Origin: Gammaproteobacteria bacterium | Lineage (GTDB): Bacteria > Pseudomonadota > Gammaproteobacteria > Steroidobacterales > Foliamicaceae | Direction of reading: 5' to 3' | Assembly (NCBI GenBank): GCA_011523505.1 | Contig: WTGP01000018.1 | Location: 431,777-495,776 of the forward strand | Length of the DNA: 64,000 bases | In this document: positions 28,793-45,408 of the stretch, in pieces | How positions within the stretch are numbered: position 1 is the stretch's first letter | How the letters are laid out: every line of letters starts with the position of its first letter | The notes under the pieces: generated by a model | The model's input: only the letters and a program-made list of their open reading frames with translations | Told to the model about the DNA's origin: nothing | The model's database searches: none | Position numbers and translations under genes: made by a program

Positions 28793-28821
28793 CTTTTCGA
28801 TCTGTAATTGGGAGAATGCGA

Positions 28822-29526
28822 ATGAACGCGAGACGGTCAACTGAAATCGCATGTTTCGTGGTGGTCCTGGCCTGCCTGGGATCCATGCCGGCCAGGGCCG
28901 AAAGCCCTCTGGAACAGGACCTCGAACAAATCATGGCGTGGTGGCCGGGAACCTACAACAACGACCGGCAGGTCGCCGAAGTCGAAGCGCGAATGGGCGA
29001 GGAGAATTTCACCGGCGAGGTCTGGCGTCTCGATGGAAGCGGCATGGGGGGCTATCTCAACGTGACGTCGCACTACCTGCGGCTGGATGCACCGGCAATC
29101 GGCGACAACGTGCTGTACGTCGAGGAGTACCGCGACGGTCAACCGGCCGAGACCTACCGCCAGCGCGTTTACACGCTGTCCGTCGACGAGGAGGAGCAGG
29201 TCATTCGGGTAAATCTCGCCAACTTCAAGGACCGCGAGAAATACATCGGGGCGTACCGGGACCTTTCCGTGCTCGACGGCATAACCCGGGACGATATCGC
29301 GCCGTTCCCGGGGATTTGCGACCTGATCGTCGAACAGCGCGGCAACCGCTATCACATGCGCATGCGCACCAATGCCTGCGCCTTCGGCGGCCAGGCGTTC
29401 AGTTACGAAGCCGTGATCACCGGGGACGCCTTCTGGTTCCGCGACAAGATCGTGCGCCTTGAAGACGACACGGTCGTCATGACCATGGCGAATTTCAACT
29501 TTCACAAGTCGGACCGGGTGGATTGA
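28822..29526 (+). CDS. CpeT/CpcT-like secreted protein
   Basis: A 234-residue protein with a signal peptide (core about residues 8-22). Its body matches the CpeT/CpcT family: MAWWPGTYNN near the start, then LYVEEYRDGQPAETYRQRVYTL, and a late WFRDKIVR. In cyanobacteria these lyases attach bilins to phycobiliproteins. Nothing else here suggests bilins, so another lipocalin-like ligand-binding role is likely. The second ATG (28822) is chosen because GGGAG lies seven bases before it, while an ATG at 28816 is too close. The gene follows the nitrilase-fold gene by 29 bases, so co-expression is likely. Confidence 0.72.
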   Translation: MNARRSTEIACFVVVLACLGSMPARAESPLEQDLEQIMAWWPGTYNNDRQVAEVEARMGEENFTGEVWRLDGSGMGGYLNVTSHYLRLDAPAIGDNVLYVEEYRDGQPAETYRQRVYTLSVDEEEQVIRVNLANFKDREKYIGAYRDLSVLDGITRDDIAPFPGICDLIVEQRGNRYHMRMRTNACAFGGQAFSYEAVITGDAFWFRDKIVRLEDDTVVMTMANFNFHKSDRVD

Positions 29527-29566
29527 CCGGCCGACTGCGGACAACGGAGACAGGAACCGCAAGATC

Positions 29567-31297
29567 GTGAGTCCGCGAGTCGCGATACGCTACGAGCCCG
29601 ACGAGCGGCCACCGCCGGCGCTCACGCTGGGCCTCGGTCTGCAGCTTGCACTGCTCCTCGTAGCCATCCCGATATTGATCCCGACCGCAGTGATGCGCGC
29701 GGCCGGTGTGACGGACGCCTACCTCAACTGGGCGGTCTATGCCTCGGTCGCGGTTTGCGGTGCGACCACGGTGCTGCAGGCGATCCGCTACAGGCGCATA
29801 GGGTCGGGCCACGTGCTGGTCATGAGCAGCGCCGCAGCCTTCATCTGGCTGTGCGTGGAGGCGCTCCAGCGGGGCGGTCCGGAGCTGCTGGCGACCCTGG
29901 TGGCGGTCTCGGCGCTGTTCCAGTTCGTGTTGTCCGCGCGAATCGCGCTATTCAGGCGGATTCTCACGCCGGCCGTTTCTGGAGCCGTGCTCATGCTCGT
30001 GCCCGTTACGGCCATGCCGGTCGTGTTCGGAATGCTGACGACCGGGACCGACGGCGGCGCGGCGGCGGGCGCCACGGCAAGCGCGGCCGTCACGGTCGTG
30101 ATCATCGTGGCCATCGCGCTCAAGGCCACGGGAGCGATGCGCCTCTGGGCGCCCGTCATCGGGGTCGCCGCGGGTTCGCTGGTCGGCGCGTTTTTCGGTC
30201 TCTACGACATCGATCGCGTTGCCGGAGCTCCCTGGGTCGGTCTGCCGGCATTCGAGTGGCCGGGATTCGACCTGGGATTCGGTCCGGACTTCTGGTCGAT
30301 GATTCCGGCCTTTCTGCTGGTGTCGCTGATCGTGACGCTGCGCACGATCAGCAGTTGCGTCGCCATTCAGAGCGTTTCGTGGCGGCGGGAACGCGCGGTG
30401 GATTTCCGGTCCGTGCAAGGCACGATCAATGCCGAGGGCGTCAGCAACCTGCTGTGCGGTCTGACCGGGACCGTGCCGAACACAACCTATTCCATAAGCG
30501 CTTCGCTGACCGAACTCACAGGCGTCGCGGCCCGCGGTATCGGCATTGCCACCGGCGTGATATTCCTGCTTGTAGCGCTCCTGCCCAAGGCGCTCGCGGT
30601 GGTCCTGGCGATACCGGGCCCGGTCGTCGGCGGCTACCTCGGCGTGCTGATGGCAATGCTCTTTCTGGTCGGCATCAAGGTCATGCTGCAGGACGGGCTG
30701 GACTATCGAAAGGGGCTGATCGTCTGCATCGCGTTCTGGGTCGGGATCGGGTTCCAGAACGGCATGATATTCCCCGAACTCGTGTCGGAATTTGCCGGTG
30801 GAATGTTCGCCAATGCGATGACGACCGGCGGACTGGCGGCGATCTTCATGACCGCGTTCGTGGAGATGTTCGACTCCCGGCGCAGCCGGATGGAAGCGGG
30901 GCCGGATCGTTCATCGCTGCCGAAAATTCGCGAGTTCCTCCGTGCATTCGCAACCCGAAGCGGTTGGGACGCCGCCATGGCCGACCGACTTGAGGCAGTC
31001 GGCGAGGAAGCACTGCTCAGCCTCGTCGGACCCGGCGCCGACGATGCGGGTCCAGGCCGCCGACTGCGGCTCGTGGCGTACCGCAGAAACGGCAACGCGG
31101 TGCTGGAATTTGCGGTCGCTCCAGTAGGAGAGAACATTCAGGACCGCCTGGCTCTGATGAGAAACGCGGCTGACGAGCCTTCGCTGGAGCAGGAGGCCTC
31201 CCTCCGGCTTCTGCGCAACCTGGCGTCGTCGGTACGCCACCAGCAATACCACGACGTGGACATCGTGACCGTGCAGGTGAAGGCGCCCGCACAATAG
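29567..31297 (+). CDS. SLC23 (nucleobase/ascorbate-type) permease with C-terminal ATPase-like domain
   Basis: The first 430 or so residues form a UraA/XanQ-type permease with about fourteen membrane spans, including the conserved TGTVPNTTYS segment near residue 300. After residue 440 a soluble tail of about 135 residues follows. It begins KIREFLRAFATRSGWDAAMADRLEAVGEEAL, recalling the N-box helix of HATPase/anti-sigma kinase domains, and ends in an alpha-beta pattern. Ordinary SLC23 transporters lack this tail. The start is a GTG with AGGA upstream. Substrate unknown; a nucleobase or related heterocycle would suit the family. Confidence 0.75.
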   Translation: MSPRVAIRYEPDERPPPALTLGLGLQLALLLVAIPILIPTAVMRAAGVTDAYLNWAVYASVAVCGATTVLQAIRYRRIGSGHVLVMSSAAAFIWLCVEALQRGGPELLATLVAVSALFQFVLSARIALFRRILTPAVSGAVLMLVPVTAMPVVFGMLTTGTDGGAAAGATASAAVTVVIIVAIALKATGAMRLWAPVIGVAAGSLVGAFFGLYDIDRVAGAPWVGLPAFEWPGFDLGFGPDFWSMIPAFLLVSLIVTLRTISSCVAIQSVSWRRERAVDFRSVQGTINAEGVSNLLCGLTGTVPNTTYSISASLTELTGVAARGIGIATGVIFLLVALLPKALAVVLAIPGPVVGGYLGVLMAMLFLVGIKVMLQDGLDYRKGLIVCIAFWVGIGFQNGMIFPELVSEFAGGMFANAMTTGGLAAIFMTAFVEMFDSRRSRMEAGPDRSSLPKIREFLRAFATRSGWDAAMADRLEAVGEEALLSLVGPGADDAGPGRRLRLVAYRRNGNAVLEFAVAPVGENIQDRLALMRNAADEPSLEQEASLRLLRNLASSVRHQQYHDVDIVTVQVKAPAQ

Positions 31298-31945: not shown

Positions 31946-32350
31946 CTATTTCAGGCGGTCGAGCATGGTTTGGTGGGCGGCGTAGGCTTCGTCGAGGCGG
32001 CGGCGGGCTTCGCCGGCTGAGGGGAAGCCGGCTTCGAGACCGGCCAGCATGATGACCGCTTCCATCTCCTCGCGCGTTATGCCGTGGTGGATGCCGGCGC
32101 GCACGAAGTAGCCCACGTCGTGGCGGGCGGCCGTGACGATCCCGATGGCGCACAGGATCATGGTCTTGAGATCGACCACCTCCTGGTCCCAGACCTCGGG
32201 TGCGATGCGCGTCATCAGTTGCCGGTTGAAGTCGTTCTGCTCCAGTTGTTCGCACAACTCCGCACCGTAGTCCGGTCCGAAGATGCGCAGGAACATGGCG
32301 CGGCCGCGCTCAAGCTCGGCCTCGGAGAAGGGTTTGTAGGCGCTGCCCAT
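31946..32350 (-). CDS. Carboxymuconolactone decarboxylase (CMD) family protein
   Basis: A 134-residue all-helical protein of the CMD/AhpD fold. The core helices read LCAIGIVTAARHDVGYFVRAGIHHG followed by ITREEMEAVIMLAGLEAG, the standard CMD order. The CxxC redox pair of AhpD is absent, so a peroxidase-type activity is unlikely and a lactone-decarboxylase or isomerase role fits better. It is the last gene of the eight-gene minus-strand operon, nine bases after the M24 gene. It is paralogous to the CMD protein at 37013-37402. Confidence 0.82.
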   Translation of the reverse strand: MGSAYKPFSEAELERGRAMFLRIFGPDYGAELCEQLEQNDFNRQLMTRIAPEVWDQEVVDLKTMILCAIGIVTAARHDVGYFVRAGIHHGITREEMEAVIMLAGLEAGFPSAGEARRRLDEAYAAHQTMLDRLK

Positions 32351-32359
32351 TCCGGCCGG

Positions 32360-33565
32360 CTAAACGCGGATCAGGTCGCGTTCGAGGTTGTAGAGGCGCT
32401 CGGACCCGTTGGCGGTGATGCGAACGGACTCTTCGAAGAACATCCCGCCCCAGCCGATTTCGTGCAGTTCCATGTCGATGTTCAGGACCATGTTTTCCTC
32501 GATCCGGAAGTCGCCGAGGTTGCCGCCGGCGATGAACGGCACCTCGATGTGGTCCAGGCCGATTCCGTGGGTGAAGGCCAGCTCGAAACTGGGCAATCCG
32601 GCGGCGCGAACAGCCTGGATGACCCGATTGCGCAATTCGCCGGTCTGTATGCCGGGCCGCAGGTTGGAATAAGCCTCGTCGATTCCCGCCATGTACGCCT
32701 TCCAGTAGCGTTCCAGCTTCGGTGAAGCCTCGCCCAGGACCGCGGTGCGCTGCGCGTCGCCCATGTAGCGGCGCCACTTCATCATGCTGTCGAAGCACAC
32801 CTGGTCGCCGGGGCGGATCACGTAGTCCCGCTCGGGCCGCCCGGCGCCGGCGCTCATCGGACCCGCGCCGTTGAAAGTGGCGAACGGGCGGGCGCCCTGC
32901 TCCACCACCCGCACCTCGTAGGCGGTATACACGTCGTTCCAGGTGGCCCCATCGCTGATCGCGGCCAGCGCTGTGCGCAGCGCCGCCTCGTTCTTGACCG
33001 CCGCTTCCTTGAGAATCGCGATTTCATCGGGCGACTTGACCATCCGTATCTCGATCAGCAGATTTCCGGCATCGACGATTTCGGCATGCTCCACGGTGTC
33101 GCCCAGAAGCCCGGCGAACCGGATGTCGTCAAACCCCAGCCTGCCCTTGTCCAGCCCGGTCTCGCTGAGCATGGCGCAGACGGCGCCGTTGATTCCGGCG
33201 TACGGCTCGTCCTCCAGCTCCGCGACCATGCGCCGGATGGCCAGGTCCTCGCCCTTGAGCTCGGTATCCTCGGCAAAGGTATGCACTTTCAGCACGCCGC
33301 CGTACACGCCGAAGTAATACAGGCGCTGGTCCGGCATCCACGTGGGCCGCTGAATCAGTACGGCCGCCTCGATCTCGGTGACCACCAGGCAGGGTGGAAT
33401 GTCGGGATCTCGCGGCAGGATGGCGCAGGCCACCCAGGGGACGTCGTAGAGGAAATCGGTGTCGAAATCGCTCAGGTACAGTACGTTGTTGGGCGTGACC
33501 GCGATCAGCGCGTCGAGCCCGTCGCGCTCCATCAACTCCATCGCCCTCTCGCGATTCAGCAACAC
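32360..33565 (-). CDS. M24 family (pita-bread) metallohydrolase, creatinase/prolidase-like
   Basis: A 401-residue protein with an N-terminal creatinase-type domain (residues 1-165) and a C-terminal pita-bread domain. Metal-ligand candidates are the Asp pair in CFDSMMKWRRYMGD (D-x10-D), His in HGIGLDHIE and Glu in FFEESVRI. The other usual Glu position (VEP in aminopeptidase P) reads NIDME, so Asp replaces it or the following Glu shifts in. Relatives include prolidases, ectoine hydrolase and the DMSP lyase DddP, so the reaction is not predictable. It is paralogous to the M24 protein at 42528-43727. Confidence 0.85.
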   Translation of the reverse strand: MLLNRERAMELMERDGLDALIAVTPNNVLYLSDFDTDFLYDVPWVACAILPRDPDIPPCLVVTEIEAAVLIQRPTWMPDQRLYYFGVYGGVLKVHTFAEDTELKGEDLAIRRMVAELEDEPYAGINGAVCAMLSETGLDKGRLGFDDIRFAGLLGDTVEHAEIVDAGNLLIEIRMVKSPDEIAILKEAAVKNEAALRTALAAISDGATWNDVYTAYEVRVVEQGARPFATFNGAGPMSAGAGRPERDYVIRPGDQVCFDSMMKWRRYMGDAQRTAVLGEASPKLERYWKAYMAGIDEAYSNLRPGIQTGELRNRVIQAVRAAGLPSFELAFTHGIGLDHIEVPFIAGGNLGDFRIEENMVLNIDMELHEIGWGGMFFEESVRITANGSERLYNLERDLIRV

Positions 33566-33580
33566 GCCGAATTCCCCGAA

Positions 33581-34444
33581 TCAGCGGAAGGAGGCGCTGG
33601 CGAAGTAGCTGTTGACGCGATCCTCCCAGTCGTCCACCTTGCCGAAAATACCGGTGTAGTAATCGGCCAGGTAGATGAGCCAGAACGCGCCGCTGATGCT
33701 GCACACCGGACCGTGGCGCACGCCGGGCGGCCGGCCGATGTAATGGTCTTTGGTCAGCACGAGGTCTTCCTTCACGTCCTCGCGCTTGTGGTCGAATGTG
33801 TAGCCGATGTAGCAATCGCCGGCGATCAGGTACAGGCATTCGTTGTGCGGATGGTGTTCGGTGCCCGGATCTATGAAGCCCGGCGCCAGCGCGGTCAGCG
33901 CAATCACCTCTTTGGTGCCATCGTCCTTGCGCAGCCCCTTGGTCAGCACGCCGGGAGGCCGGGCCTCCTGGCCGGTGTTCGGGTCCTTCCAGGTGGAGCG
34001 CTTGACGATGTCCGCCATCGGATCGACCCACGGCAGGTGCCAGGTGTTGGTGCGGGCGATATGCCGGTCGACGTGCGCATCCGTCAGCGAGTCGCCCGCC
34101 TCTTCGAAGGCCAGCGGCCGGCTGGTGAACAGCAGGAGCCTGCAACCGCCGGACGTGCTCGTCGGCCCCCAGGCCATGCCGGCCGGGAAATAGCCGTAAC
34201 AGCCCTGCATCCAGGTTTCGCCGCCGATGTCCAGGGAACCTTCCAGCACGTAGAGGTCGATGTCGGCCTCGTTCCGGCCGCGCGGCAGGGACCAGCCGTG
34301 CGGCAGTTCCATGACCAGGTGTTCGCCGCCGGTCTTGCTCTCGGTGCTCAGGTTGCGGGCCACGGCGCCCGGCGTGTACCCGGAATTGACCGGCCGCGGT
34401 TCTACGGCACTTACGTCCAGGCAGTCCTCCCTTCGCATCGGCAT
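33581..34444 (-). CDS. Bicupin protein (cluster copy 1)
   Basis: A 287-residue protein with two cupin domains, about residues 40-120 and 180-270. The second keeps likely metal ligands in EHHPHNECLYLIAGD and PPGVRHGP. The first (LYVLEGSLDIGGETWMQGCYGYFPAGMAWGP) lacks the usual histidines. It shares the pattern xxLxGDxxxG...RPPGxxHGP with the bicupins at 36144 and 41695, so the three are paralogues. Bicupins can be ring-cleaving dioxygenases, isomerases or lyases. It sits 15 bases upstream of the M24 gene. Confidence 0.8.
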   Translation of the reverse strand: MPMRREDCLDVSAVEPRPVNSGYTPGAVARNLSTESKTGGEHLVMELPHGWSLPRGRNEADIDLYVLEGSLDIGGETWMQGCYGYFPAGMAWGPTSTSGGCRLLLFTSRPLAFEEAGDSLTDAHVDRHIARTNTWHLPWVDPMADIVKRSTWKDPNTGQEARPPGVLTKGLRKDDGTKEVIALTALAPGFIDPGTEHHPHNECLYLIAGDCYIGYTFDHKREDVKEDLVLTKDHYIGRPPGVRHGPVCSISGAFWLIYLADYYTGIFGKVDDWEDRVNSYFASASFR

Positions 34445-34466
34445 CGCGTTGCTCCTTCGTTTTCAG

Positions 34467-35300
34467 TCAGTCCTCAAGCCCCGCCAGCCAGTCCACCACG
34501 GCCTCGCAGCACTCCCTGGGCTTGGTAATCATGCAATAGGTCGATCCCGCGCCGGCGATCTCCGCCTTGTCCACGTCGGACTTGATGGCCAGAAACTCGC
34601 GCATCAGCGTGTCGTGGCTGGCCGAGTCCATGCGCTCGTTCTCGTTGAGCGCACTGTCATCTCCCATCAGCAGGAGCGTCGGGCACTCGATATTGCGGAT
34701 ATCGGCGGTCAGGTCCACGTTGGTATAGGCGTCAAGCACGGACTTCAGCGTGGCCATGTTCACGTTGGCGGCGTATTGCTTCTTGGCCCAGCGCTCGTAC
34801 TTGATGCCCTCTTCGGAATACAGCACGTCGGGCGGAAGCACCACACCCGCATACAGGCGCGAAAGCTGCTCGATGCCGAACACCCTGCCCACCCACCAGG
34901 ATGCCTCGTAGATGTTGCGCCAGGTGTCGTCGACGCGGATGAACGGATAGGCGATCAGCGAGTGCATGCGTTCGGGGTACTTGGCCGCGAAGCGCAGGCC
35001 GATCGACGAACCCGTCGAGGTGCACCATAGCGCCGTGCGTTCGATCCCCGCAGCGTCCAGGATCGCGGCCAGGTCGTCCACCCATCGTTCCACCGAGTAC
35101 GGCTCCGACTGGGTCCAGTCGGACTTGCCCACCCCGCGGTAGTGCCATTGCAGGATCCGGTGATGCGGGGTGAGGTACGGCTCGCAGAACTCGAACTGCT
35201 TGTCCACCAGCGCAAAACCGCCAATCAGCGTGAGCGGCGGATCGCCCTCGCCGCGAACCTCGTACCACAGATTGGCGCCGTCCACGCGTACTTTCGACAT
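34467..35300 (-). CDS. Alpha/beta hydrolase-fold protein
   Basis: A 277-residue single-domain alpha/beta hydrolase. The oxyanion-hole segment is LIGGFALVDKQFE, the nucleophile elbow is CTSTGSSIG with the middle Ser as candidate nucleophile, and the acid is in LLLMGDDSALNE. The usual catalytic His position near the C-terminus, normally GxGH, reads GAGSTYCM, so His appears replaced by Ser. Homology is clear from the family N-terminus and the HYRGVGKSD turn. The protein may be a non-hydrolytic member or use another His. It is the fifth gene of the minus-strand operon. Confidence 0.82.
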   Translation of the reverse strand: MSKVRVDGANLWYEVRGEGDPPLTLIGGFALVDKQFEFCEPYLTPHHRILQWHYRGVGKSDWTQSEPYSVERWVDDLAAILDAAGIERTALWCTSTGSSIGLRFAAKYPERMHSLIAYPFIRVDDTWRNIYEASWWVGRVFGIEQLSRLYAGVVLPPDVLYSEEGIKYERWAKKQYAANVNMATLKSVLDAYTNVDLTADIRNIECPTLLLMGDDSALNENERMDSASHDTLMREFLAIKSDVDKAEIAGAGSTYCMITKPRECCEAVVDWLAGLED

Positions 35301-35316
35301 GCAGTCTCCCCAGCGC

Positions 35317-36141
35317 CTATTGCGGAGAGATTGCCGCGTCGTACTGGTGCACGATCCGCACCCCGTCCAGCATGAACCCCATCGGCATCCAGTATGCGCC
35401 CAGGACTTCCGTCGGCGCCAGCGGCATCAGCTCCTCGTTGTCGGCCCGGCAGAACTCCAGCGACCCCTCGCCGGCCAGCGTCTCGCCCTGCTCAAGCCCG
35501 CTCATCACCATCTGCGTGAGGTCGTGCACCAGGGGTTTGCCCAACGGCGGCACATGGCAGTCGGGAACGTGGCGCATGCAGGTGAGAGGCAGGTTGCGCG
35601 TGTAGAACTCCAGTTCCGCGACGTCTATCACGCGCTGCGGCAAGAACTCCATGCGCATCACGGCCTCGCCGTTGCGGCTGACGACGCGCTTGAGCCGCGT
35701 GCCCACGCCGCCGTCCTGGCTCATGCCGGGCAGCAGCGGATGCAGGCCGCTGGTTTCGATCTCCGCCAGCTTGGAGCAGGCGCCCAGAAACCAGCTCAGC
35801 AGAACCAGCCAGTCGCGGTTGCACCACTGGAAGGTGGAGAACATCGTGCGTTCGCCGTGCAGCCTGCAGGGCAGTCCGATCACCGCAACGTCGTAATGAC
35901 TGCGCGCCGCCGGCCAGTCCGCGGGCTCCACGCCCTCGGGGTAGCACTTGAGGTGCGGGCTCCACACATAGGCCTCGTCGGGCGGATCGGATGGCGTAAG
36001 CGGCTCCGGCAGGTACGCGGCGATCGCATCCGGATCGGTCCGGAAGTGAAACAGCAGAAGGTTGCCGGCAAAGCGCCACGGCAGCGGCTCCAGCATGGAG
36101 GCCGCGCCGTTCGGCGTGAAGGGACGCGTGTATCCGGCCAT
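35317..36141 (-). CDS. Acetoacetate decarboxylase-fold protein
   Basis: A 274-residue protein matching the acetoacetate decarboxylase superfamily, with the core sequence SWFLGACSKLAEIE. In classical ADC this segment is GYPKKLA, where the first Lys forms the Schiff base and the second lowers its pKa. Here the first position is Ser and only the second Lys is kept. Several ADC-fold proteins catalyse aldolase-dehydratase or lyase reactions, so decarboxylation is not assured. The ATG at 36141 lies two bases after the bicupin stop and has a GGAGG before it; the longer in-frame ORF is a shadow. Confidence 0.78.
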   Translation of the reverse strand: MAGYTRPFTPNGAASMLEPLPWRFAGNLLLFHFRTDPDAIAAYLPEPLTPSDPPDEAYVWSPHLKCYPEGVEPADWPAARSHYDVAVIGLPCRLHGERTMFSTFQWCNRDWLVLLSWFLGACSKLAEIETSGLHPLLPGMSQDGGVGTRLKRVVSRNGEAVMRMEFLPQRVIDVAELEFYTRNLPLTCMRHVPDCHVPPLGKPLVHDLTQMVMSGLEQGETLAGEGSLEFCRADNEELMPLAPTEVLGAYWMPMGFMLDGVRIVHQYDAAISPQ

Positions 36142-36143
36142 GG

Positions 36144-36986
36144 CTACCTCCAGTTTCCCCAGAGTTGCGGTTGCGGATCCGGCGCGGCCTGTGCCAGGTA
36201 CTCGCGGCAGCGCGGCGCGCTCCAGTCCGGCTCGGTGAACCGGAAGTCGATTTCCTTCTCGCCGCGGCAGAACCACACGCAGCCGCCGCGCGTGGCCTGC
36301 GGCCCGTGCGGTTTCTCGCCCGGACGGAAGATATAGGAACCCGAAGTGATCATGCCGGTCTCTCCCATAAGGTAATCGCCCTGCAGCAGCACCAGTTCCT
36401 CCCAGGTTTCGTGCGCCTCCAGCCTGGGATCGCACCATCCCGGCGCCTGACGCGTCATCAGCGTGTAGGCGCCGGTGTCCGGATCGCTGCGCAGCCTGCG
36501 CACCTTCAGGCCGGCCCCCGCCTCTTCGCTCGTTCGGCCGGGAAAATCCGGCACAGGCTGCCATGCCATGGTGTTGACGTCCAGCGGCCCGGCCAATCGT
36601 TCTTCCCGATACGCGGCCGCGGGTCCGGAGCCCTGCGAGAGTCCGGCACTGCCTTCGCCCATCCACAGCGCCGCGAACCCGCCGCGGGTCTCGGCGCCGG
36701 CAACGGCAAGCCCCCGGGGGAGGAATGCGTAACTTCCGCGCGCGAATTCGCATTCGCCCAGCCTGAGGTCGCCTTCCAGAAGGAGAATTTCGAGATCGTT
36801 TTCCAACACGCCGCTGTCGTGAGAGCACCAATAGGGTTCGCCTTTCACGAAGAGGCTATTGGCTCCCGAGTCGCCTGGCTGGGCACTGAGAATGGCCGCC
36901 CGCAATCCATGCCCGAATGCAGGCGCCGCCGCCGGCGTCAGCGCCACGCCGTCCAGACGCAGAAATTCAACCCGCGGACGCGACAT
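36144..36986 (-). CDS. Bicupin protein (cluster copy 2)
   Basis: A 280-residue bicupin. The N-terminal cupin (about residues 25-110) includes DLEILLLEGDLRLGECEFARGSY. The C-terminal cupin has RLEAHETWEELVLLQGD and FRPGEKPHGPQ, giving His, Glu and His ligand candidates. Start at ATG 36986, because the upstream extension overlaps the CMD gene. It is the third gene of the operon, 26 bases after the CMD gene and two before the ADC-fold gene. Confidence 0.8.
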   Translation of the reverse strand: MSRPRVEFLRLDGVALTPAAAPAFGHGLRAAILSAQPGDSGANSLFVKGEPYWCSHDSGVLENDLEILLLEGDLRLGECEFARGSYAFLPRGLAVAGAETRGGFAALWMGEGSAGLSQGSGPAAAYREERLAGPLDVNTMAWQPVPDFPGRTSEEAGAGLKVRRLRSDPDTGAYTLMTRQAPGWCDPRLEAHETWEELVLLQGDYLMGETGMITSGSYIFRPGEKPHGPQATRGGCVWFCRGEKEIDFRFTEPDWSAPRCREYLAQAAPDPQPQLWGNWR

Positions 36987-37012
36987 CGATGCCTGGTGGG
37001 GTTGCTCGTCCG

Positions 37013-37402
37013 TCAGCCCGCGCCGAAACGGGCTTCGTGCTCGGAATACACGCGGGTCAGGATGTCGATGGCCATTTCTGCGGCAGGAAAACCGAACTCC
37101 AGACCCGCCAGTAACAGGATTTCCTCTACTTCTTCCCGGGGAATTCCGTGATGGGCCGCCATCTTCATGAAGAATTCCACTTCCTGTTTGTGCGTGGCCG
37201 TGAACATGGCGATGCTGCACAGGATCTTGGTGCGCAGGTCCACCCGGTCCATCTCCCAGATCGGCACCATGACCTCACGCAACTTGGCATGAAACGCCGG
37301 AGGGCGGCTGGTAACGATCCACTGATAGATTTCCTCGCCCTGTTCGTCGCCCCACAGCTTGTGGGTAATCGCCTGAAACCGGCGTTCGAGGTCGTCACTC
37401 AC
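37013..37402 (-). CDS. Carboxymuconolactone decarboxylase (CMD) family protein, second copy
   Basis: A 129-residue CMD-fold protein. The start is a GTG overlapping the methyltransferase stop (GTGA). The core is KILCSIAMFTATHKQEVEFFMKMAAHHG then IPREEVEEILLLAGLEFG, closely similar to the copy at 31946-32350. The CxxC motif is missing here too. The two copies end the first and last parts of one operon, so they may form a hetero-oligomer or act at two steps. Confidence 0.8.
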   Translation of the reverse strand: MSDDLERRFQAITHKLWGDEQGEEIYQWIVTSRPPAFHAKLREVMVPIWEMDRVDLRTKILCSIAMFTATHKQEVEFFMKMAAHHGIPREEVEEILLLAGLEFGFPAAEMAIDILTRVYSEHEARFGAG

Positions 37403-38487
37403 GGCCGCACTCCGATCGTGGCCCACCAGGGATAGGCGCCGAAAAAGTACTCGCCGCCGAAACCCCAGCCGGTCAGCTCGTTGGGCAGCGGCACGTCGCG
37501 AACATCGCAGAAACCGCCTTGCTCGAACATGCTCACGCGGTCTTCGGCCAGGAATCCCGGCAGGAAGGGGTCTTCCATGCGCCGCCCGGTGGAGTCCAGC
37601 AGAAACGCCGAAAGCGGGCTGTATTCCTCCTGCAGCACCTTGAACGGAGGCGATTCCATGATCGCGAAGACCCCGCCGGGGCGCAGCAGCCGGAAGGCCT
37701 CGCGAACGACGGCCGCGCGCACCTTGCCCGGCAGTTCGTGAAACAGCCACACCGCGCTGACCACGTCGAAACTCGCGTCCGGATAGCCGGTGTCCTCGGC
37801 CAGCCGCTGGGTGAAACGGACCTTGTGGCCGCGCGACTCGGCCAGCTTGTGGCCGTACTTGAGCATGGAGGCGGAGTAGTCCAAACCCACCACTTCTGCA
37901 TCCGGGTAGAGCTCGCAATAGGGGAAGGTGCTCTTGCCCACCCCGCAACCCAGATCGAGGATTCGCCGGTAGTCGCCCTTGGGCACCGCGCGGGCGAGGT
38001 TCCAGCCCATTTCGTCGCCGTCGTCGCGGCCCACCAGGAACGGGCTGATCATCCAGTGATAGAGGAATCCGGCGAACTCAGCGTGGTAATTGCCCGGCTG
38101 CGTATGGATTTCGATCTTGCGGTAATAGCGGGGCGTTTCCAGTTCCGGGTCCAGCTCCAGGCTTCCCAGCGCGCCCGGGCGATTGCATTCATCCAGCCAG
38201 GTCCGAACCTCATCGCCCTGGCGTTCGAGTATGTCCAGGATGGCGCGGAACATCTGCGCGTGGTTGTGGCGCTCGAAGAACGCGCCGAAACGGTAGGCGG
38301 CGCCCTGCTCCATCAGCGCGCCCACCTCGCGGATGTCCGTCGGATCGTCCAGCCGGGTCTCGTTTTCGCGATAGTGGGCGCCCATCGCGGGTCCGAAACC
38401 GGTCGAATTGAAGGCCATCAGGCCCCCAACAAAATCAAGCCGCGCCTGCTGCGCGCGGCTGCGCTGAATATCCGGAGTAGCTGTCAT
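37399..38487 (-). CDS. Class I SAM-dependent methyltransferase
   Basis: A 362-residue protein. The C-terminal two thirds form a class I methyltransferase with motif I ILDLGCGVGKS (about residues 196-206), motif II AEVVGLDYS and the post-II region FDVVSAVWLFHELP. The N-terminal 150 residues are helical and probably shape the substrate site. It is first in the minus-strand operon. GGGAG precedes the ATG, and TATAAT on the minus strand lies 27 bases upstream. The target could be the imported compound or an intermediate. Confidence 0.85.
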   Translation of the reverse strand: MTATPDIQRSRAQQARLDFVGGLMAFNSTGFGPAMGAHYRENETRLDDPTDIREVGALMEQGAAYRFGAFFERHNHAQMFRAILDILERQGDEVRTWLDECNRPGALGSLELDPELETPRYYRKIEIHTQPGNYHAEFAGFLYHWMISPFLVGRDDGDEMGWNLARAVPKGDYRRILDLGCGVGKSTFPYCELYPDAEVVGLDYSASMLKYGHKLAESRGHKVRFTQRLAEDTGYPDASFDVVSAVWLFHELPGKVRAAVVREAFRLLRPGGVFAIMESPPFKVLQEEYSPLSAFLLDSTGRRMEDPFLPGFLAEDRVSMFEQGGFCDVRDVPLPNELTGWGFGGEYFFGAYPWWATIGVRP

Positions 38488-38606
38488 CGATGCTCCCAGG
38501 GGAGTTGGACTATATTATAGGGAGGCGTGTTTCGCACGCTGGCTTGATCGGCGCATTGAGGGTGCGCCGTTTTTCTGGGCCGGGACTACAGCATTGAGGG
38601 GACCCT
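38488..38606. promoter_or_regulatory. Divergent control region of the 14-gene cluster
   Basis: This gap separates the two operons. It holds TATAAT on the minus strand at 38514-38519, inside the AT-rich TATATTATAG and about 27 bases from the methyltransferase ATG. A small inverted repeat GCGTG-TTTCG-CACGC at 38525-38539 is a possible operator, and a terminator-like hairpin lies in the plus-strand leader. No -35 matching consensus is seen for either direction, which suggests activator dependence. No regulator gene lies in the cluster. Confidence 0.5.
38549..38574 (+). terminator. Intrinsic-terminator-like hairpin in the TonB receptor leader
   Basis: Plus strand: stem CGGCGCA pairs with TGCGCCG (7 bp, perfect) around the loop TTGAGGG, followed directly by TTTTT. 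It ends 32 bases before the receptor ATG at 38607. Because both flanking operons diverge from this gap, the only plus-strand transcript it could stop is the receptor operon itself, making it an attenuator candidate. It could also block a spurious transcript arising on the plus strand. Confidence 0.5.
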
Positions 38607-41114
38607 ATGAACCTGATTCGCACTACCACCTGCGGCGCCGTCGCGTCATTTCTGATTATCCCGCTGGCCGGCTTCGTCGCGCCGACGGCCTCGGCCCAGA
38701 TGGCCGCGCTCGAGGAAATCGTGGTGACGGCCCGAAAGCGCGAGGAAAGCATCCAGGACGTGCCGCTTTCCATCACGGCGTTCACCGGAGCGGAACTGGA
38801 ACGCGGAGGCTACGTGGACCTGGAGGACATTTCGTTCCGGACCGCCGGCATGCAGTTCAACAACGAGCTGGCCGGAACGCGGCCGGGACGGCTGTTCAGC
38901 AATATCCGCTTTCGCGGCGTCGAGGGCAGCGAGTATTCCACGCTGCAGACCGCGTCGCTGTTCGTGGACGGCGTTTTTGCCCTCCAGGGCGCCCAGACTC
39001 TCGCGCTGAGCGACCTGGAGCGGGTGGAGGTCATCAAGGGGCCGCAATCCGCGGCTTTCGGAAGAAACTCATTCGCCGGCGCCATCAACTACATCACGCG
39101 CGCGCCGGACATGGAGGAATTCTCGGGCAGGATCAAGGTCGATGCCGGGGAGTACGATCAGCATGAGCTGGACGTGAGCGCGGACATTCCCATCGCTCCC
39201 GGAGTGCTTGCCCTGCGTGTCGGAGGGCGCTACTTCAACAAGGGCGCCATGTACCACAACGAAGGGGGCGTCGGCGTGGGCAAGCAGCGCTCGGAGTCGA
39301 TGTTCGCCACGCTTTTCTGGCAGCCTTCGGACAACGCCAGCGTCAAGCTGCGCTACTACCGGCAGGACGACAGCGACGGTCCGGCAGGCGTGACCTTTTA
39401 CCAGGCCCGGCTGCATGACAGTTGCACGGGCAAGACGATGCCCGGGCTGACCACCGACGGACAGCCCACCACGCTGGAGCCGAAGGAGTTCATCTGCGGG
39501 ACCATCCCGGGGCCGGGCACGATCGGCACTCCAAACCCCAGTCTTTCCCTCAACCCGTCCAGCTTTCCCGCCGGTTTCCAGAACTTTATCCGCGAATCAT
39601 TCGTTGAGTCGCCCTCCCAGGTTGAAGGCGTGCCCTACATCGACCACTTCGGAATCGAGCGCGAAATCACCCGCATCAGCCTTGTGGTGGACTACGAGTT
39701 CGCGAACGGCATGTCGCTGGTGGCCACCGCCGCGACCAACGAAAACGCCGCCGCCAATCTGCGCGACTGGGACATGACGCCGGACGAGGCCTGGTACGTG
39801 TCCAATCCGCAGGCCGGCGAGGACGAGAGCATCGACATCCGCCTGTCTTCGGCGCCGGATGCCCGGCTGCGCTGGCTGGGCGGGTTCAATTACTACACTC
39901 AGGAGTTCCTGACCAGTTCCAACGGCGGCGTGTTCGTGGTGGCCTGCGGCAATCTGGGCGCTTTCGGAACGCCCGCGCAGTGCGCCAATCCCGCGCGCAT
40001 ACCGGTTGGCGTGGACGGCGGCGATTTCGTGGACGTGCAAGCCTTCTACGGGTCCGTGTCCTACGACATTACCGAACAGTTCACCGTGGATCTGGAAGCG
40101 CGCTGGCAGGACGACACGCGCAGCGACGGCATTGCCGATTTCGAGATCAATTTCAAGGATTTCCTGCCCCGGATCTCGCTCAGATATCGCATCACCGAAG
40201 ACATGACGGCCTACGTTACGGTTTCGCGCGGCATTCTTCCGGGCGTCATCAACTCCAACATCATCAACTGCAACCCCACGACCTTCAGTGCGCCGTTTAT
40301 CGATCCGCGCACCGGTCAGCCGAGCACCTCTTCGATGTGCCAGCAGTACGTCGATGCGTTGGGCGCCGACGCGGTGGACGTGACGCCGGTGCAGGAGCTC
40401 GACGCCTATGAGATCGGCGTGAAGTCCACCTGGATGGACGGACGGCTGGTCGCCAACGTGGCGGCCTACTGGCAGGAATGGGGGAACGCGCCCTTCCCGA
40501 CCTTCGTGACCGTTTACCGCGACGACGACGGCGACGGGGTCCCCAACACCAACCCCAACTTCTTCCCGGTCAGTACGCCGGGCAGTTCGGAATATTCCGG
40601 CGTGGAGCTGGAAGTGGATTTCCTGATCTCCGAAGACTGGGACGTCAGTTTCAACTGGTCGTTCAACGACAACGAGTTCACCGAGTTCCTCATCCCCCTG
40701 GCGTCCGCCGAGTACGCGCTGGGCACCCGCAACGTCAAGGGGCATCGCTCCAGCCGCTTCCCGAAGTGGTCCGGCAGTGTTTCCTCCACCTATGGCGGAA
40801 CCTTCCAGAATGGCTGGGACTGGTCGCTTCGCGGCGATCTCACCTACATGGGCGAGACCTTCCCGGGCCTGACCAACCTGGCGACGCTGGAGAGCTACTC
40901 GCTGCTCAACCTCCGGTTCGCGGTCGAGCGGAACAACCTGAGGCTGGAGGCATACCTGAAAAACGCGCTGGACGAAGATTACTGGCGCACCGGCCAGGAA
41001 TACACGGACTTCTCGCGCGTGCTGAGCGTCGGTTTCAACTTCAACAGGCTCGGCCTGACGCTGGTGCCGCAGGACAAGCCCACCTTCGGATTGCGCGCCG
41101 CGATCGAGTTCTAG
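38607..41114 (+). CDS. TonB-dependent outer-membrane receptor (cluster)
   Basis: An 835-residue receptor with a signal peptide ending in ASAQ. A TonB-box-like segment (EEIVVTARKREES) comes next, then a plug domain with VPLSITAFTG and VEVIKGPQSAAFGRNSFAGAINYIT. The 22-strand-type barrel ends in a C-terminal Phe (RAAIEF). This is the layout of receptors often called iron-siderophore or pesticin type, but such sequences also import plant or algal metabolites. As first gene of the plus-strand operon it probably brings the cluster's substrate across the outer membrane. Confidence 0.9.
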   Translation: MNLIRTTTCGAVASFLIIPLAGFVAPTASAQMAALEEIVVTARKREESIQDVPLSITAFTGAELERGGYVDLEDISFRTAGMQFNNELAGTRPGRLFSNIRFRGVEGSEYSTLQTASLFVDGVFALQGAQTLALSDLERVEVIKGPQSAAFGRNSFAGAINYITRAPDMEEFSGRIKVDAGEYDQHELDVSADIPIAPGVLALRVGGRYFNKGAMYHNEGGVGVGKQRSESMFATLFWQPSDNASVKLRYYRQDDSDGPAGVTFYQARLHDSCTGKTMPGLTTDGQPTTLEPKEFICGTIPGPGTIGTPNPSLSLNPSSFPAGFQNFIRESFVESPSQVEGVPYIDHFGIEREITRISLVVDYEFANGMSLVATAATNENAAANLRDWDMTPDEAWYVSNPQAGEDESIDIRLSSAPDARLRWLGGFNYYTQEFLTSSNGGVFVVACGNLGAFGTPAQCANPARIPVGVDGGDFVDVQAFYGSVSYDITEQFTVDLEARWQDDTRSDGIADFEINFKDFLPRISLRYRITEDMTAYVTVSRGILPGVINSNIINCNPTTFSAPFIDPRTGQPSTSSMCQQYVDALGADAVDVTPVQELDAYEIGVKSTWMDGRLVANVAAYWQEWGNAPFPTFVTVYRDDDGDGVPNTNPNFFPVSTPGSSEYSGVELEVDFLISEDWDVSFNWSFNDNEFTEFLIPLASAEYALGTRNVKGHRSSRFPKWSGSVSSTYGGTFQNGWDWSLRGDLTYMGETFPGLTNLATLESYSLLNLRFAVERNNLRLEAYLKNALDEDYWRTGQEYTDFSRVLSVGFNFNRLGLTLVPQDKPTFGLRAAIEF

Positions 41115-41150
41115 CGCGGCGCTGACGCTACAACCGTGCAGGAACAGCTT

Positions 41151-41723
41151 ATGGAAACCCGCGACGTACCGCTGGTGGAAGCCACGCCCGAGGCCCTGGC
41201 CGCGTGCGGAGAAATGCTGGGCCGCCATCCCGGCGCGAAGGCCTTGCCGATCCGGTTCTACGAGGGTTCGGTGCAGACCTACCGCCCGGTGGATTTCCAA
41301 TCGGACGAGCAGACCGAGCTCAGCCTCGCACACGTGCGGCGGCGCCCCTTCGAGGTGCACTGGATCGAGCGCCATTTCAAGCACACACAGACCTTCATTC
41401 CGCTGGGCGGCGCGCCTTTTATCGCGGTAATGGCGCCGCCCACGAACGGGGACCTGCCGGACCTCGACCAGGTCCGCGCCTATCGCTTCGACGGCTCGGC
41501 CGGCTTCACGATGAAGCTGGGCACCTGGCACGAGTTCCCGTTCGCGGTGGAGGAAGAAGCCGATATCGTGGTGGTGCTGAGACGCGAGGCGACGCAGAGC
41601 CTGCTCGACACAGACCCCGCCACGGGCGAGGTGCGCGGTCCGGACATACAGAAGCAGGACCTGATAAAGCAGCACGGCGTACGCCTGCGATTCGATGTCC
41701 AGGGAACACGTCGAGAACCTTGA
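41151..41723 (+). CDS. Ureidoglycolate lyase (AllA)-like protein
   Basis: A 190-residue protein whose central region matches AllA. ERHFKHTQTFIPLGGAPFIAVMAPP corresponds to the family's ERHxxGTQAFIP block, and FTMKLGTWHEFPF corresponds to YHxxxWHHPL, with one His replaced by Glu. AllA releases urea from ureidoglycolate in purine catabolism. The altered motif and absence of other allantoin genes suggest a related but different substrate. The ATG at 41151 is preferred over GTG 41136 because AGGA precedes it. The following bicupin gene overlaps it by 29 bases. Confidence 0.75.
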   Translation: METRDVPLVEATPEALAACGEMLGRHPGAKALPIRFYEGSVQTYRPVDFQSDEQTELSLAHVRRRPFEVHWIERHFKHTQTFIPLGGAPFIAVMAPPTNGDLPDLDQVRAYRFDGSAGFTMKLGTWHEFPFAVEEEADIVVVLRREATQSLLDTDPATGEVRGPDIQKQDLIKQHGVRLRFDVQGTRREP

Positions 41724-42504
41724 CTCATCGGCTGTTGCGCCCGTTCCCTGGAATCCTCCGGGACTGACGCGCGGCGCGCAACTGCGCCCGCTCGCCCGGG
41801 ACCCCGCCAGCGGCGGCTTTACCGGACTCGTGGATCTGCCGGCCGGCTTCGACAGCGCCAGCGGCCTGAGTTGTACCGTGGAGATGCGCCTGTTCGTCAT
41901 CGAAGGGGAATTGCAGTTGGGCGAGAACCGTCTCGGACCCGGCGGTTTCTGCTACCACCCGGCCGGCTCCGGACAAGGCCGCTGGCGATCGCCGAAGGGC
42001 GCACGCGCATTCGTCGTTTACCTGGAAAGCCCTGAGTTTCGACCCGATCGAGGCTCCCCCGCACCCGATGCGATACCGTCACTGGACTCCTTCGCCATGG
42101 ACTGGCACAACCCGCTGGACGCCAGCGATCCGTCCCAGGCCTTTCGCCCCGGCATCTTCGTGAAGGTCCTGCACGTGGATCCGGAAACGAGGGCGAGCAC
42201 GCACCTGGCCGGCCTGATGCCCGGCTGGTACGCGGAAGGCATGGAATCGCACCCCGTGTACGAGGAAAACTACTGCCTGCAGGGCGACGTGCTGATCGGG
42301 GAAGTGGGCGATGAAGCGGGCTACACGATGGTGGTGGGCAGCTACCTGTGCCGGCCCCCCGGCATCATTCACGGGCCGCTGGCCAGCAAGAACGGCAACG
42401 TCAACCTCTGCTTCACCCATGGCCTGCTCGGCATCGACTACAGCGAAAACCCACGGTCCATGGAGCTCATCCGCAAGCACCTCCGAAACCACCCCTGGAC
42501 CTGA
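41695..42504 (+). CDS. Bicupin protein (cluster copy 3)
   Basis: A 269-residue bicupin. N-terminal cupin: EMRLFVIEGELQLGENRLGPGGFCYHPAG. C-terminal cupin: ESHPVYEENYCLQGDVLIGE and CRPPGIIHGPL, with His, Glu and His candidates in the same places as copies 1 and 2. It overlaps the AllA-like gene by 29 bases and precedes the M24 gene by 23 bases. This repeats the bicupin-then-M24 pairing seen in the minus-strand operon. Confidence 0.8.
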   Translation: MSREHVENLDSSAVAPVPWNPPGLTRGAQLRPLARDPASGGFTGLVDLPAGFDSASGLSCTVEMRLFVIEGELQLGENRLGPGGFCYHPAGSGQGRWRSPKGARAFVVYLESPEFRPDRGSPAPDAIPSLDSFAMDWHNPLDASDPSQAFRPGIFVKVLHVDPETRASTHLAGLMPGWYAEGMESHPVYEENYCLQGDVLIGEVGDEAGYTMVVGSYLCRPPGIIHGPLASKNGNVNLCFTHGLLGIDYSENPRSMELIRKHLRNHPWT

Positions 42505-42527: not shown

Positions 42528-43727
42528 ATGCTGGTTAATCTCGAACGCGCGCGCGCCAGGATGGAGGAAGCGGGCCTGGAAGCGATGGTGTGCGTACAGC
42601 CCGTCAACGTCTACTACGCCAGCGGCTACGAGTCCGACTGGCTGTTCGACTACCAGTGGGCCGGTTGCGCGATCCTGCCGCTGTCCGAGGACCGCCCCGC
42701 CACGCTCATCGTTCACGATGTCGAGCTGACCAACCTGGCCGAGCACCCGAGCTGGATGCCGGAATTGCGGGTCTATGAGACGCAGGTGGGCGACGACATT
42801 TTCAGCCACTACACGGTGGATGAGGAAGCCGAACTGGAGGAATCAGACCGCAAGACGCTGGCGCTGATGGAAGAGACCCGCGCCACGGCCAGCACGGGCG
42901 TGGTGGAGGCGATCCTGAAGGCGCTTGGCGACGGCGGCTACCGCAGGCTCGGCTTCGACGACGCGCGCCTGGCCGCGCTTTGCGCCGAACGGCTGTCCGG
43001 CGTCGAGTGCTTCGACCGCCCCGAACTGATGACGATGATCCGGGCGGTCAAGACGCCCGCGGAACTGAAACTGATGCGCGAGGCGGGCCGGCGCAATCAG
43101 CAGGCCTTGAGCGTTGCCATCGATGCGGCGGGCGTGGGCGTGAAATGGTCGGACATTCGCCGGGCCTGGCACCTCTCGGTGGCCGAGCAGGACTGCATGC
43201 CCTGGTGCATCTACGTCGGCGCGGGCCACAAGAGCATGGGCCTGTGGCACGACCACGATTACCCGATTCGCGAGGGCGACCAGCTCTGCTTCGACTCCAT
43301 GCTCACATGGCAACGCTACTTCGGCGACATGCAGCGGACCTGCGTCATGGGCGCGCCCGGCGCCAAGCTGCAGCGCTACTGGAATGCCGCCTACGCCGCC
43401 GCGGAAGCCGTATTCGACGCCATGCGCCCGGGCGTGAACACGGTGGAATTGCGCAAGCTGGCGCTGGAGGTCGGCAAGCGCGGCGGGATCAAGGGATTCC
43501 GGCATGCCTTCATGCACGGACTGGGACTGGAGCACCTGGAACTGCCCAGCGCTTCTCCGGGCCTGAGCGGGTTCGACCTGGAGGAAGGCATGGTCGTGAA
43601 CATGGACATGGAGGTGTGCGAGATCGGTTTCGGCGGCATTTACTATGAGAACACCCTGCTGATCGGGCGTAACGGCCCCGAATACCTCTGCGATATGCCG
43701 CGCGAACTGATACACCTGCCCTGCTGA
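42528..43727 (+). CDS. M24 family (pita-bread) metallohydrolase, second copy
   Basis: A 399-residue paralogue of the M24 protein at 32360. The candidate metal ligands recur: D-x10-D in CFDSMLTWQRYFGD, His in HGLGLEHLEL and Glu in YYENTLLIG. The variant NMDME again sits where aminopeptidases have VEP. The N-terminal domain (NVYYASGYESDWLFDYQWAGC) aligns with NVLYLSDFDTDFLYDVPWVAC of the other copy. The size matches creatinase and ectoine hydrolase (about 400 residues). The ATG at 42528 gives a start co-linear with the first copy. Confidence 0.85.
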   Translation: MLVNLERARARMEEAGLEAMVCVQPVNVYYASGYESDWLFDYQWAGCAILPLSEDRPATLIVHDVELTNLAEHPSWMPELRVYETQVGDDIFSHYTVDEEAELEESDRKTLALMEETRATASTGVVEAILKALGDGGYRRLGFDDARLAALCAERLSGVECFDRPELMTMIRAVKTPAELKLMREAGRRNQQALSVAIDAAGVGVKWSDIRRAWHLSVAEQDCMPWCIYVGAGHKSMGLWHDHDYPIREGDQLCFDSMLTWQRYFGDMQRTCVMGAPGAKLQRYWNAAYAAAEAVFDAMRPGVNTVELRKLALEVGKRGGIKGFRHAFMHGLGLEHLELPSASPGLSGFDLEEGMVVNMDMEVCEIGFGGIYYENTLLIGRNGPEYLCDMPRELIHLPC

Positions 43728-44031: not shown

Positions 44032-45408
44032 ATGCAAGCTGCACCGACTCGCTTTGCGCGCGTGTTGAAGACGCGCGACGTACTGATGCTCTCATTCGGA
44101 GCGATGATCGGCTGGAGCTGGATATTGATGACCGGCTACTGGGTCGGCAACGCCGGAAGTCTCGGAACATTGATCGCGTTCGCCGCCGGCGGCCTGGTGA
44201 TCGGGTTCATCGCGCTCACCTATGCCGAGCTGGCCTCCGCGATGCCGCGGGCCGGCGGCGAGCACGTCTACACCCACGCCGGGCTGGGGGCCGGCTGGTC
44301 GTTCGTCTGCACCTGGGCGCTGCTGATGGCCTACGTGACCGTATGCGTGTTCGAGTCCGTGGCGCTGCCCACAGCGGTGGAATACCTGATACCCGCGATC
44401 CGTATGGGCGCGCTCTGGCACGTCGCCGGCGCCCCCGTCGACGCGGGGTTCATCCTCGTGGGTCTGGCGGGCGCCGTCGTGATGACCTGGATCAACGTCG
44501 TCGGCATCCGGACCGCGGCGATCGTCCAGGGCATCGTCACCGTCGCAATCTTCGTTTCCGGCGTGGTGCTGTTCGCCGGGGCGGCCGGTTTCGGCCTGCC
44601 CGAACTGGCGGAACCGAAAATCGCCGTTCCGGCCACCGGCATTCTCACCGTCCTGATCATGGTCCCCGCCCTGCTGGTCGGATTCGACGTGCTTCCGCAG
44701 TCGGCGGAGGAAATCGACCTTCCGCCGAAGCGCATCGGGCGATTGCTGATCGTCTCCCTGGTCATGGCCGTGGCCTGGTACGGCGCGATCGCCTGGTCGG
44801 TGGCGGTGGCGCTCACCCCGGAGGAGCTGGCCGGCGACGGGCTGATTACGGCGGATGCGGCGAAGAAGCTCTGGTCCCTGGCCGCGGGCGGCTCCTGGGC
44901 CGGCGTGGCGCTCACGATCGGCGGTATCGGCGGCGTGCTCACAAGCTGGAACGCCTTCATTATCGGCGGCAGCCGCGTGGTCTTCGCCCTGGCCAAATCA
45001 GGCAGCCTGCCCGCCGTGTTCGGGCGGCTTCATCCGCGCTACAAGACGCCCTATGTTGCCGTGCTCGCGATCGGACTGCTGAGCTGCATTTCGCCATTGT
45101 TCGGGCGGACGATACTGGTGTGGCTGATCAACTGCGGCAGTTTTGCCGTTGTGGCCGCCTACCTGTTCGTGCCGATCGCTTTCCTGGCCCTTCGCCGAAG
45201 CCAACCCGACCTGCCCCGGCCCTACAAATTGCGCTATCCGCGGTTCGTAGGCATATCGGCCATCGTGCTGGCCCTCGGCCTGCTCTGCCTGTTCATGCCC
45301 TTCAGCCCGTCCAGCCTGGTCTGGCCACAGGAATGGGGCATCGTGCTGGGCTGGGGCGCTGCTGGCCTCCTGGTCTGGTTCACCCGCCGGACTAAACCCC
45401 CTGCTTGA
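44032..45408 (+). CDS. APC superfamily amino acid/amine permease
   Basis: A 458-residue permease with twelve membrane helices. The first helix motif is [11 protein letters not shown], a variant of the APC GxG unwound substrate site, and [21 protein letters not shown] in helix 3 is diagnostic of the superfamily. It is the last gene of the plus-strand operon and overlaps the 3' end of prfB by 17 bases in convergent orientation. It most likely carries the cluster's substrate, probably an amino acid or other amine, across the inner membrane. Confidence 0.88.

Follow-up and report, generated by a model that had tools for sequence, protein, structure and literature searches.

Can two adjacent genes be duplicated as one unit, both copies being kept, and what chemistry would such a pair then serve? 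This question is raised by a bacterial locus in which three paralogous bicupins lie within 9 kb, two of them next to a gene of the M24 family. The window analyzed here, a stretch of 64,000 nucleotides, corresponds to positions 431777-495776 of contig C13 in a 3.1-Mb MAG of 53 contigs. Its near relatives are gammaproteobacterial MAGs, including COS2_bin_9, RHO1_bin_71, SB0673_bin_2, and PNGco_C_bin10. Their isolate names point to an association with sponges, which makes the bacterium of the window a probable sponge symbiont.

Organization of the Cluster

The genes are arranged in two runs (Table 1). The minus-strand run is transcribed in the order methyltransferase, CMDb, bicupin 2, ADC-like protein, alpha/beta-hydrolase-like protein, bicupin 1, M24a, and CMDa. 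The plus-strand run encodes a TonB receptor, a ureidoglycolate-lyase-like protein, bicupin 3, M24b, and an APC permease. The methyltransferase and CMDb genes overlap by 4 nt. CMDb, 36% identical to CMDa, is kept beside the methyltransferase in related loci.

Two of these related loci carry the full cluster and are used for comparison throughout, L033 from UBA964 and L039 from G018, a member of another family of the order. CMDa is syntenic in both. The ureidoglycolate-lyase-like protein, which scores under every NCBIfam equivalog cut-off, adjoins bicupin 3 in the genus of the window and is missing from L033 and L039. In these two loci, an MFS transporter occupies the place 3' of M24b that the APC permease holds in the window.

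Table 1. Genes of the cluster, with positions in the window and profile matches.
Feature	Position	Strand	Context	Profile match or clade
CMDa, carboxymuconolactone-decarboxylase-like	31946..32350	-	3' of M24a	PF02627 E 7e-5, barely over cut-off
M24a, creatinase/prolidase-fold protein	32360..33565	-	15 nt downstream of bicupin 1	PF00557 E 4.2e-30
Bicupin 1 (DUF4437-like)	33581..34444	-		PF14499 E 2.7e-11; clade b1 100/100
Alpha/beta-hydrolase-fold protein	34467..35300	-		PF00561 E 3e-10
ADC-superfamily (MppR-like) protein	35317..36141	-		PF06314 E 2.1e-27; MppR 76 bits vs. cut-off 380
Bicupin 2 (DUF4437-like)	36144..36986	-		PF14499 E 1.9e-16; clade b2 100/100
CMDb, carboxymuconolactone-decarboxylase-like	37013..37402	-		PF02627 E 3.4e-6
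Class I SAM methyltransferase	37399..38487	-	first gene of minus-strand run	PF13649 E 2.3e-22
TonB-dependent receptor	38607..41114	+	divergent from methyltransferase	PF00593 E 2.9e-26, PF07715
Ureidoglycolate-lyase-like protein	41136..41723	+	overlaps bicupin 3	PF04115 E 1.4e-18
Bicupin 3 (DUF4437-like)	41695..42504	+		PF14499 E 2e-16; clade b3 99/94
M24b	42528..43727	+	23 nt downstream of bicupin 3	PF00557 E 4.2e-31
APC-type amino-acid permease	44032..45408	+	downstream of M24b	PF13520 E 2.4e-35

Beside the cluster, at 27554-31297 on the plus strand, genes for a Tat-signal-like nitrilase-superfamily protein, a CpeT/CpcT-like protein, and a xanthine/uracil permease are found. The first two are kept in this position in the genus. 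The role of a CpeT-like protein outside cyanobacteria is not obvious.

The Three Bicupins

The first-pass annotation had seen three paralogous bicupins here, and all three are open reading frames with a DUF4437 match. Indeed, bicupins 1, 2, and 3 score 43.6, 60.4, and 60.4 bits against PF14499, whose gathering score is 24 bits, and all of them also match Cupin_7. In the tree, however, a long distance separates them from the classical DUF4437 clade with its high scores. Any two of them are 26-30% identical (E 5e-17 to 5e-26). For bicupin 2, the likely start is at 36986 (MSRPRVEF) rather than at the mechanical start of the reading frame, 37220, which overlaps the CMD gene. Because three of only five DUF4437 proteins in the whole 3.1-Mb genome are found here, and because the arrangement is kept in distant genomes, the grouping is not a matter of chance.

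A common set of second-domain motifs had also been described. The H/E ligand pattern is present as E-x-H-x3-E ... H in domain 2 of all three proteins (E196, H198, E202, and H244 in bicupin 1). It recurs in every row of clades b1, b2, and b3 in the alignment, and domain 1 has no such residues. One metal per bicupin, held in the C-terminal barrel, may thus be predicted from the sequences. The other two motifs are less uniform. Bicupins 2 and 3 have LQGD at the LxGD turn, where bicupin 1 has IAGD, and the PPGxxHGP-like end reads RPPGxxHGP in bicupins 1 and 3, with RPGEKPHGP in its place in bicupin 2.

The AF2 model of bicupin 3 (pLDDT 96) matches 2qdr (Z 28.1), 1sfn (20.9), ChrR 3o14 (20.3), 4e2q (20.0), and quercetinase 1y3t (19.9). 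With this range of matches, the fold alone does not pick a reaction.

The M24 Proteins and Their Neighbors

The pairing of copies 1 and 3 with M24 genes holds: M24a and M24b each lie downstream of their bicupin, on its own strand, and just outside the interval 33581-42504 to which the first reading referred. The pairs had been described as lying on opposite strands. This is correct only in the sense that the second unit is inverted, since in both pairs the bicupin is upstream of its M24 gene and on the same strand.

M24a and M24b are 40% identical over their full length. They carry Creatinase_N and Peptidase_M24 domains and belong to the Peptidase M24 family with 105.5 and 108.8 bits, respectively, against PF00557. 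The AF2 model of M24a (pLDDT 91.7) has the prolidase/creatinase fold, with Foldseek matches to prolidases. Its metal-ligand positions are D259, D270, H333, D364, and E378. These positions are conserved in the subfamily alignment, except that the fourth has changed from Glu to Asp in the whole subfamily; Asp364 of M24a aligns with E313 of Pyrococcus furiosus prolidase, which we take to be the fourth metal-ligand Glu of that enzyme. Hence, both proteins have D-D-H-D-E instead of the five ligands D-D-H-E-E of prolidase and aminopeptidase P, and the prolidase motif EPG reads DME. They also fall far short of the NCBIfam equivalogs, reaching at most 69.5 vs. 575 bits for DoeA, 29.8 vs. 600 for DddP, and 79.6 vs. 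630 for PepQ. A reading as DMSP lyases, with DddP as the M24 enzyme and cupin lyases as the bicupins, was rejected on the NCBIfam cut-offs.

Two further proteins of the cluster depart from their textbook relatives, as judged by eye on family alignments rather than on structures. The alpha/beta-hydrolase-fold protein keeps the Ser motif, and the position of the catalytic His reads GAGSTYCM in all six orthologues, so that the Ser-Asp/Glu-His triad of PcaD-like hydrolases is incomplete. The ADC-like protein has the Pfam domain of the acetoacetate decarboxylase superfamily, but across seven homologues no conserved Lys was seen in the stretch corresponding to the Schiff-base lysine. Given the missing ADC lysine, the missing hydrolase histidine, and the Glu-to-Asp change in M24, the family names are not to be read as reactions.

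A Probable Duplication of the Bicupin-M24 Unit

Congruent branching of the bicupins and the M24 proteins had been proposed as the mark of a unit duplication, and the trees agree with it. In a bicupin tree of 64 rows, which includes the classical DUF4437 clade and the sphingomonad bicupin, b1, b2, and b3 each form one clade and together form one clade (96/80), within which b1 and b3 are sisters (98/91). M24a and M24b are likewise sisters, with support of 100/99 when near outgroups are used and 97/97 in a first tree. Near outgroups were preferred because distant ones gave long-branch trouble. Very remote outgroups place the root inside the set of M24a rows, which we read as such an artifact; a constraint keeping M24a and M24b together was not rejected (p 0.36).

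Gene arrangement points the same way. In all full clusters, both units have the same gene order, lie each on one strand, and have short internal gaps. In addition, an MFS transporter is found 3' of both M24b and M24a-CMDa in two genomes (L033/L182 and L039/L047). The two MFS copies within each genome are 41% and 44% identical, close to the 40% of M24a and M24b. Since a homologous MFS gene ends both units in these genomes, the duplicated unit looks like bicupin-M24-(CMD)-MFS, with CMD present in one copy only. At the ends of the two units in the genus of the window, no MFS gene was seen.

Could the bicupins and the M24 genes instead have been duplicated separately and been juxtaposed later? The AU test leaves room for this, as it rejects neither bicupin 1 with 2 (p 0.088) nor bicupin 2 with 3 (p 0.173). 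In Rhodospirillaceae, moreover, M24a has no bicupin 1 beside it and bicupin 3 has no M24b, and the clusters of L051 and L093 hold an M24 gene and bicupins that are not adjacent. Three things speak against such a history: the matching sister pair in both gene trees, the identical order, strand, and short gaps of the two units, and the third homologous gene, MFS, 3' of both. We regard it as unlikely. Thus, matching trees, gene order, strand, and the shared MFS gene uphold the proposed unit duplication, and the other bicupin pairings left by the AU test and the unstable M24 root weaken it. On balance, the sequence data support a bicupin-M24 unit that was duplicated and of which both copies were kept.

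Distribution in Other Genomes

In the genus of the window, M24a and M24b are found in seven of the eight other genomes, G004 having neither. Outside the genus, synteny extends over bicupin3-M24b, the TonB receptor, and the run from the methyltransferase through CMDb, bicupin 2, ADC, alpha/beta-hydrolase, bicupin 1, and M24a to CMDa in the window, L033, and L039. In L042, from Rhodobiaceae, the part from the methyltransferase to M24a is syntenic and the contig ends there. The cluster enzymes are 43-70% identical across these four loci. The duplication is considered ancient because distant alpha- and gammaproteobacterial MAGs carry the cluster with unchanged gene order at this level of identity. 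The spread of the cluster across two classes also suggests horizontal transfer. In G018, the cluster is followed (L047 3567-10080) by genes for a Cyclase-family protein, an acyl-CoA ligase, a flavin monooxygenase, an FAA hydrolase, a TetR regulator, and a small cupin, perhaps another aromatic-type catabolic module.

Rhodospirillaceae harbor a reduced form, MTase-CMDb-M24a, with bicupin 3 nearby in several genomes and ADC homologues located elsewhere. Some of the surveyed genomes are fragmented, so that absences of genes weigh little. The whole set of b1, b2, b3, M24a, and M24b is found in G404 and in G410, from which L039 comes; G411 has b1, b2, b3, and M24a; G409 combines b1 and two b2-like genes with M24a. 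A crossed pair of b3 and M24a, with neither bicupin 1 nor M24b, occurs in G403, G405-G408, and G412. Most Rhodospirillaceae have only one bicupin of the b1-b3 clade and one M24 protein, usually bicupin 3 and M24a, and M24b was seen only where bicupin 3 is adjacent. The crossed pair may reflect either differential loss or interchangeable partners. Because a single crossed pair is usual in this family, the units do not necessarily work one after the other in every case. Eight Rhodospirillaceae genomes (G403, G405-G409, G411, and G412) and the same-order G010 show 9 to 18 bicupin-profile matches each, an unusual expansion for an uncharacterized family of enzymes.

A Possible Function of the Duplicated Pair

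We consider, with moderate confidence, that this is a widespread and probably catabolic cluster in which the two copies of the bicupin/M24 pair deal with two related compounds, whether intermediates or substrates. A small organic molecule would enter the cell, probably via the TonB-dependent receptor. Sequence, trees, and synteny support an ancestral unit, a DUF4437-like bicupin with an M24 metallohydrolase and, as in related genomes, an MFS transporter, that was duplicated before the cluster spread in alpha- and gammaproteobacteria. One copy (bicupin1-M24a-CMDa) stands at the end of the main operon and the other (bicupin3-M24b) is inverted behind the receptor, bicupin 2 being an older paralogue inside the operon. 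A bicupin may open, oxidize, or rearrange an intermediate, and its partner M24 protein, with its Asp-Asp-His-Asp-Glu site, may hydrolyze the product, most likely at an amide or amidine C-N bond. Because C-N bonds are what DoeA, creatinase, and similar small-molecule M24 enzymes cleave, an amide- or amidine-containing intermediate would be the likeliest M24 substrate. The two pairs would serve either a single route, at two similar intermediates, or two substrates related to each other. They may work on successive intermediates, as first suggested, but it would be just as consistent for them to work in parallel on a pair of related substrates.

Catabolism is favored because a TonB receptor is part of the cluster and because MFS transporters and TetR regulators surround related clusters. 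These same features tell against a biosynthetic cluster of natural-product tailoring enzymes, as do the acyl-CoA ligase and FAA hydrolase genes that follow in G018, and no core synthase was found among the genes examined. A methyltransferase is nevertheless unusual in a catabolic operon, and methyltransferases, cupins, CMD, and an MppR-like ADC protein are known from biosynthetic clusters. The nearest NCBIfam match of the ADC gene is the enduracididine protein MppR, and in L039 the cluster has a P450 nearby. Even so, we consider a biosynthetic role unlikely.

A variant of purine or ureide catabolism, in which the bicupins would be similar to (S)-ureidoglycine aminohydrolase and have a ureidoglycolate lyase next to them, is suggested by the adjacent lyase-like gene, the nearby xanthine/uracil permease, the metal pattern in the C-terminal domain of the bicupins, and the match of bicupin 3 to Arabidopsis UGlyAH (4e2q). 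But 4e2q does not stand out from quercetinase and ChrR, whose folds reach the same score, and against the TIGR03214 cut-off of 200 bits, bicupins 1 and 3 reach 12.5 and 16 bits and bicupin 2 has no match. In the genome, the only ureidoglycine aminohydrolase match is weak and below cut-off, and the lyase-like gene is not a constant partner, as L033 and L039 show. An allantoicase query matched nothing in the genome of the window, a weak negative, as it matched no control genome either. This variant is disfavored, and we consider it very unlikely.

Returning to degradation, we tentatively propose, at rather less than even confidence, that the three bicupins, the two non-peptidase D-D-H-D-E M24 hydrolases, the Lys-less ADC-like protein, and the His-less hydrolase-fold protein make up an undescribed route whose chemistry is not yet assigned to any of its families. 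Literature searches on DUF4437, on clusters of bicupins and M24, on strain JE1, and on combinations of sponge, TonB, cupin, and CMD retrieved nothing relevant. The locus offers a single operon that probable sponge symbionts share with other marine bacteria. Its enzymes are without assigned reactions, and its enzyme pair appears to have been copied as a unit and retained. The substrate, once found, would show what some members of both the DUF4437 and the M24 family do.

Relationships With Known Systems

The closest structure is that of Nostoc Npun_F5605 (2qdr, "putative dioxygenase," DUF4437/Cupin_7), which has the same two-barrel architecture as bicupin 3 along the full length (238 residues at 1.8 A) and matches the family profile with E 2e-27. 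In the sequence alignment, however, it lacks the E-x-H-x3-E ... H of domain 2 of the window bicupins, and it is itself without assigned function. (S)-ureidoglycine aminohydrolase (4e2q, DUF861 family) has the bicupin fold in common with bicupin 3. Its metal is presumably held only in the C-terminal barrel, where the window bicupins have their pattern, but its ligand pattern differs from theirs. M24a shares its fold with ectoine hydrolase DoeA/EutD, creatinase, DMSP lyase DddP, and prolidases.

Another recurrent cluster was observed in sphingomonad plasmids and marine gammaproteobacteria (L056, which is pJE1 8000-50000, L057, L058, L098, and L044). It combines a DUF4437 bicupin, a methyltransferase, and a TonB receptor with a LeuCD-like dehydratase, a CaiB-type CoA-transferase, and an HMG-CoA-lyase-like enzyme. 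Polysaccharide-deacetylase-like and isochorismatase genes are added in pJE1 and pTomTYG65b, and hydantoinase A/B in pJE1. Speculatively, this could be an imide/maleate-type degradation route. The genome of the window has a partial version of it on contig C6.

At the level of gene clusters, the plasmids pJE1, pTomTYG65b, and pSA1 of sphingomonads, which carry a methyltransferase, a DUF4437 bicupin, a VAO-type flavoprotein, and a TonB receptor, are comparable to the window. Their bicupin belongs to another clade, and no M24a/b-, ADC-, or CMD-like gene occurs in the stretches read. Nonetheless, they resemble the cluster of the window in uniting a related methyltransferase and a bicupin with MFS and TonB receptor genes.
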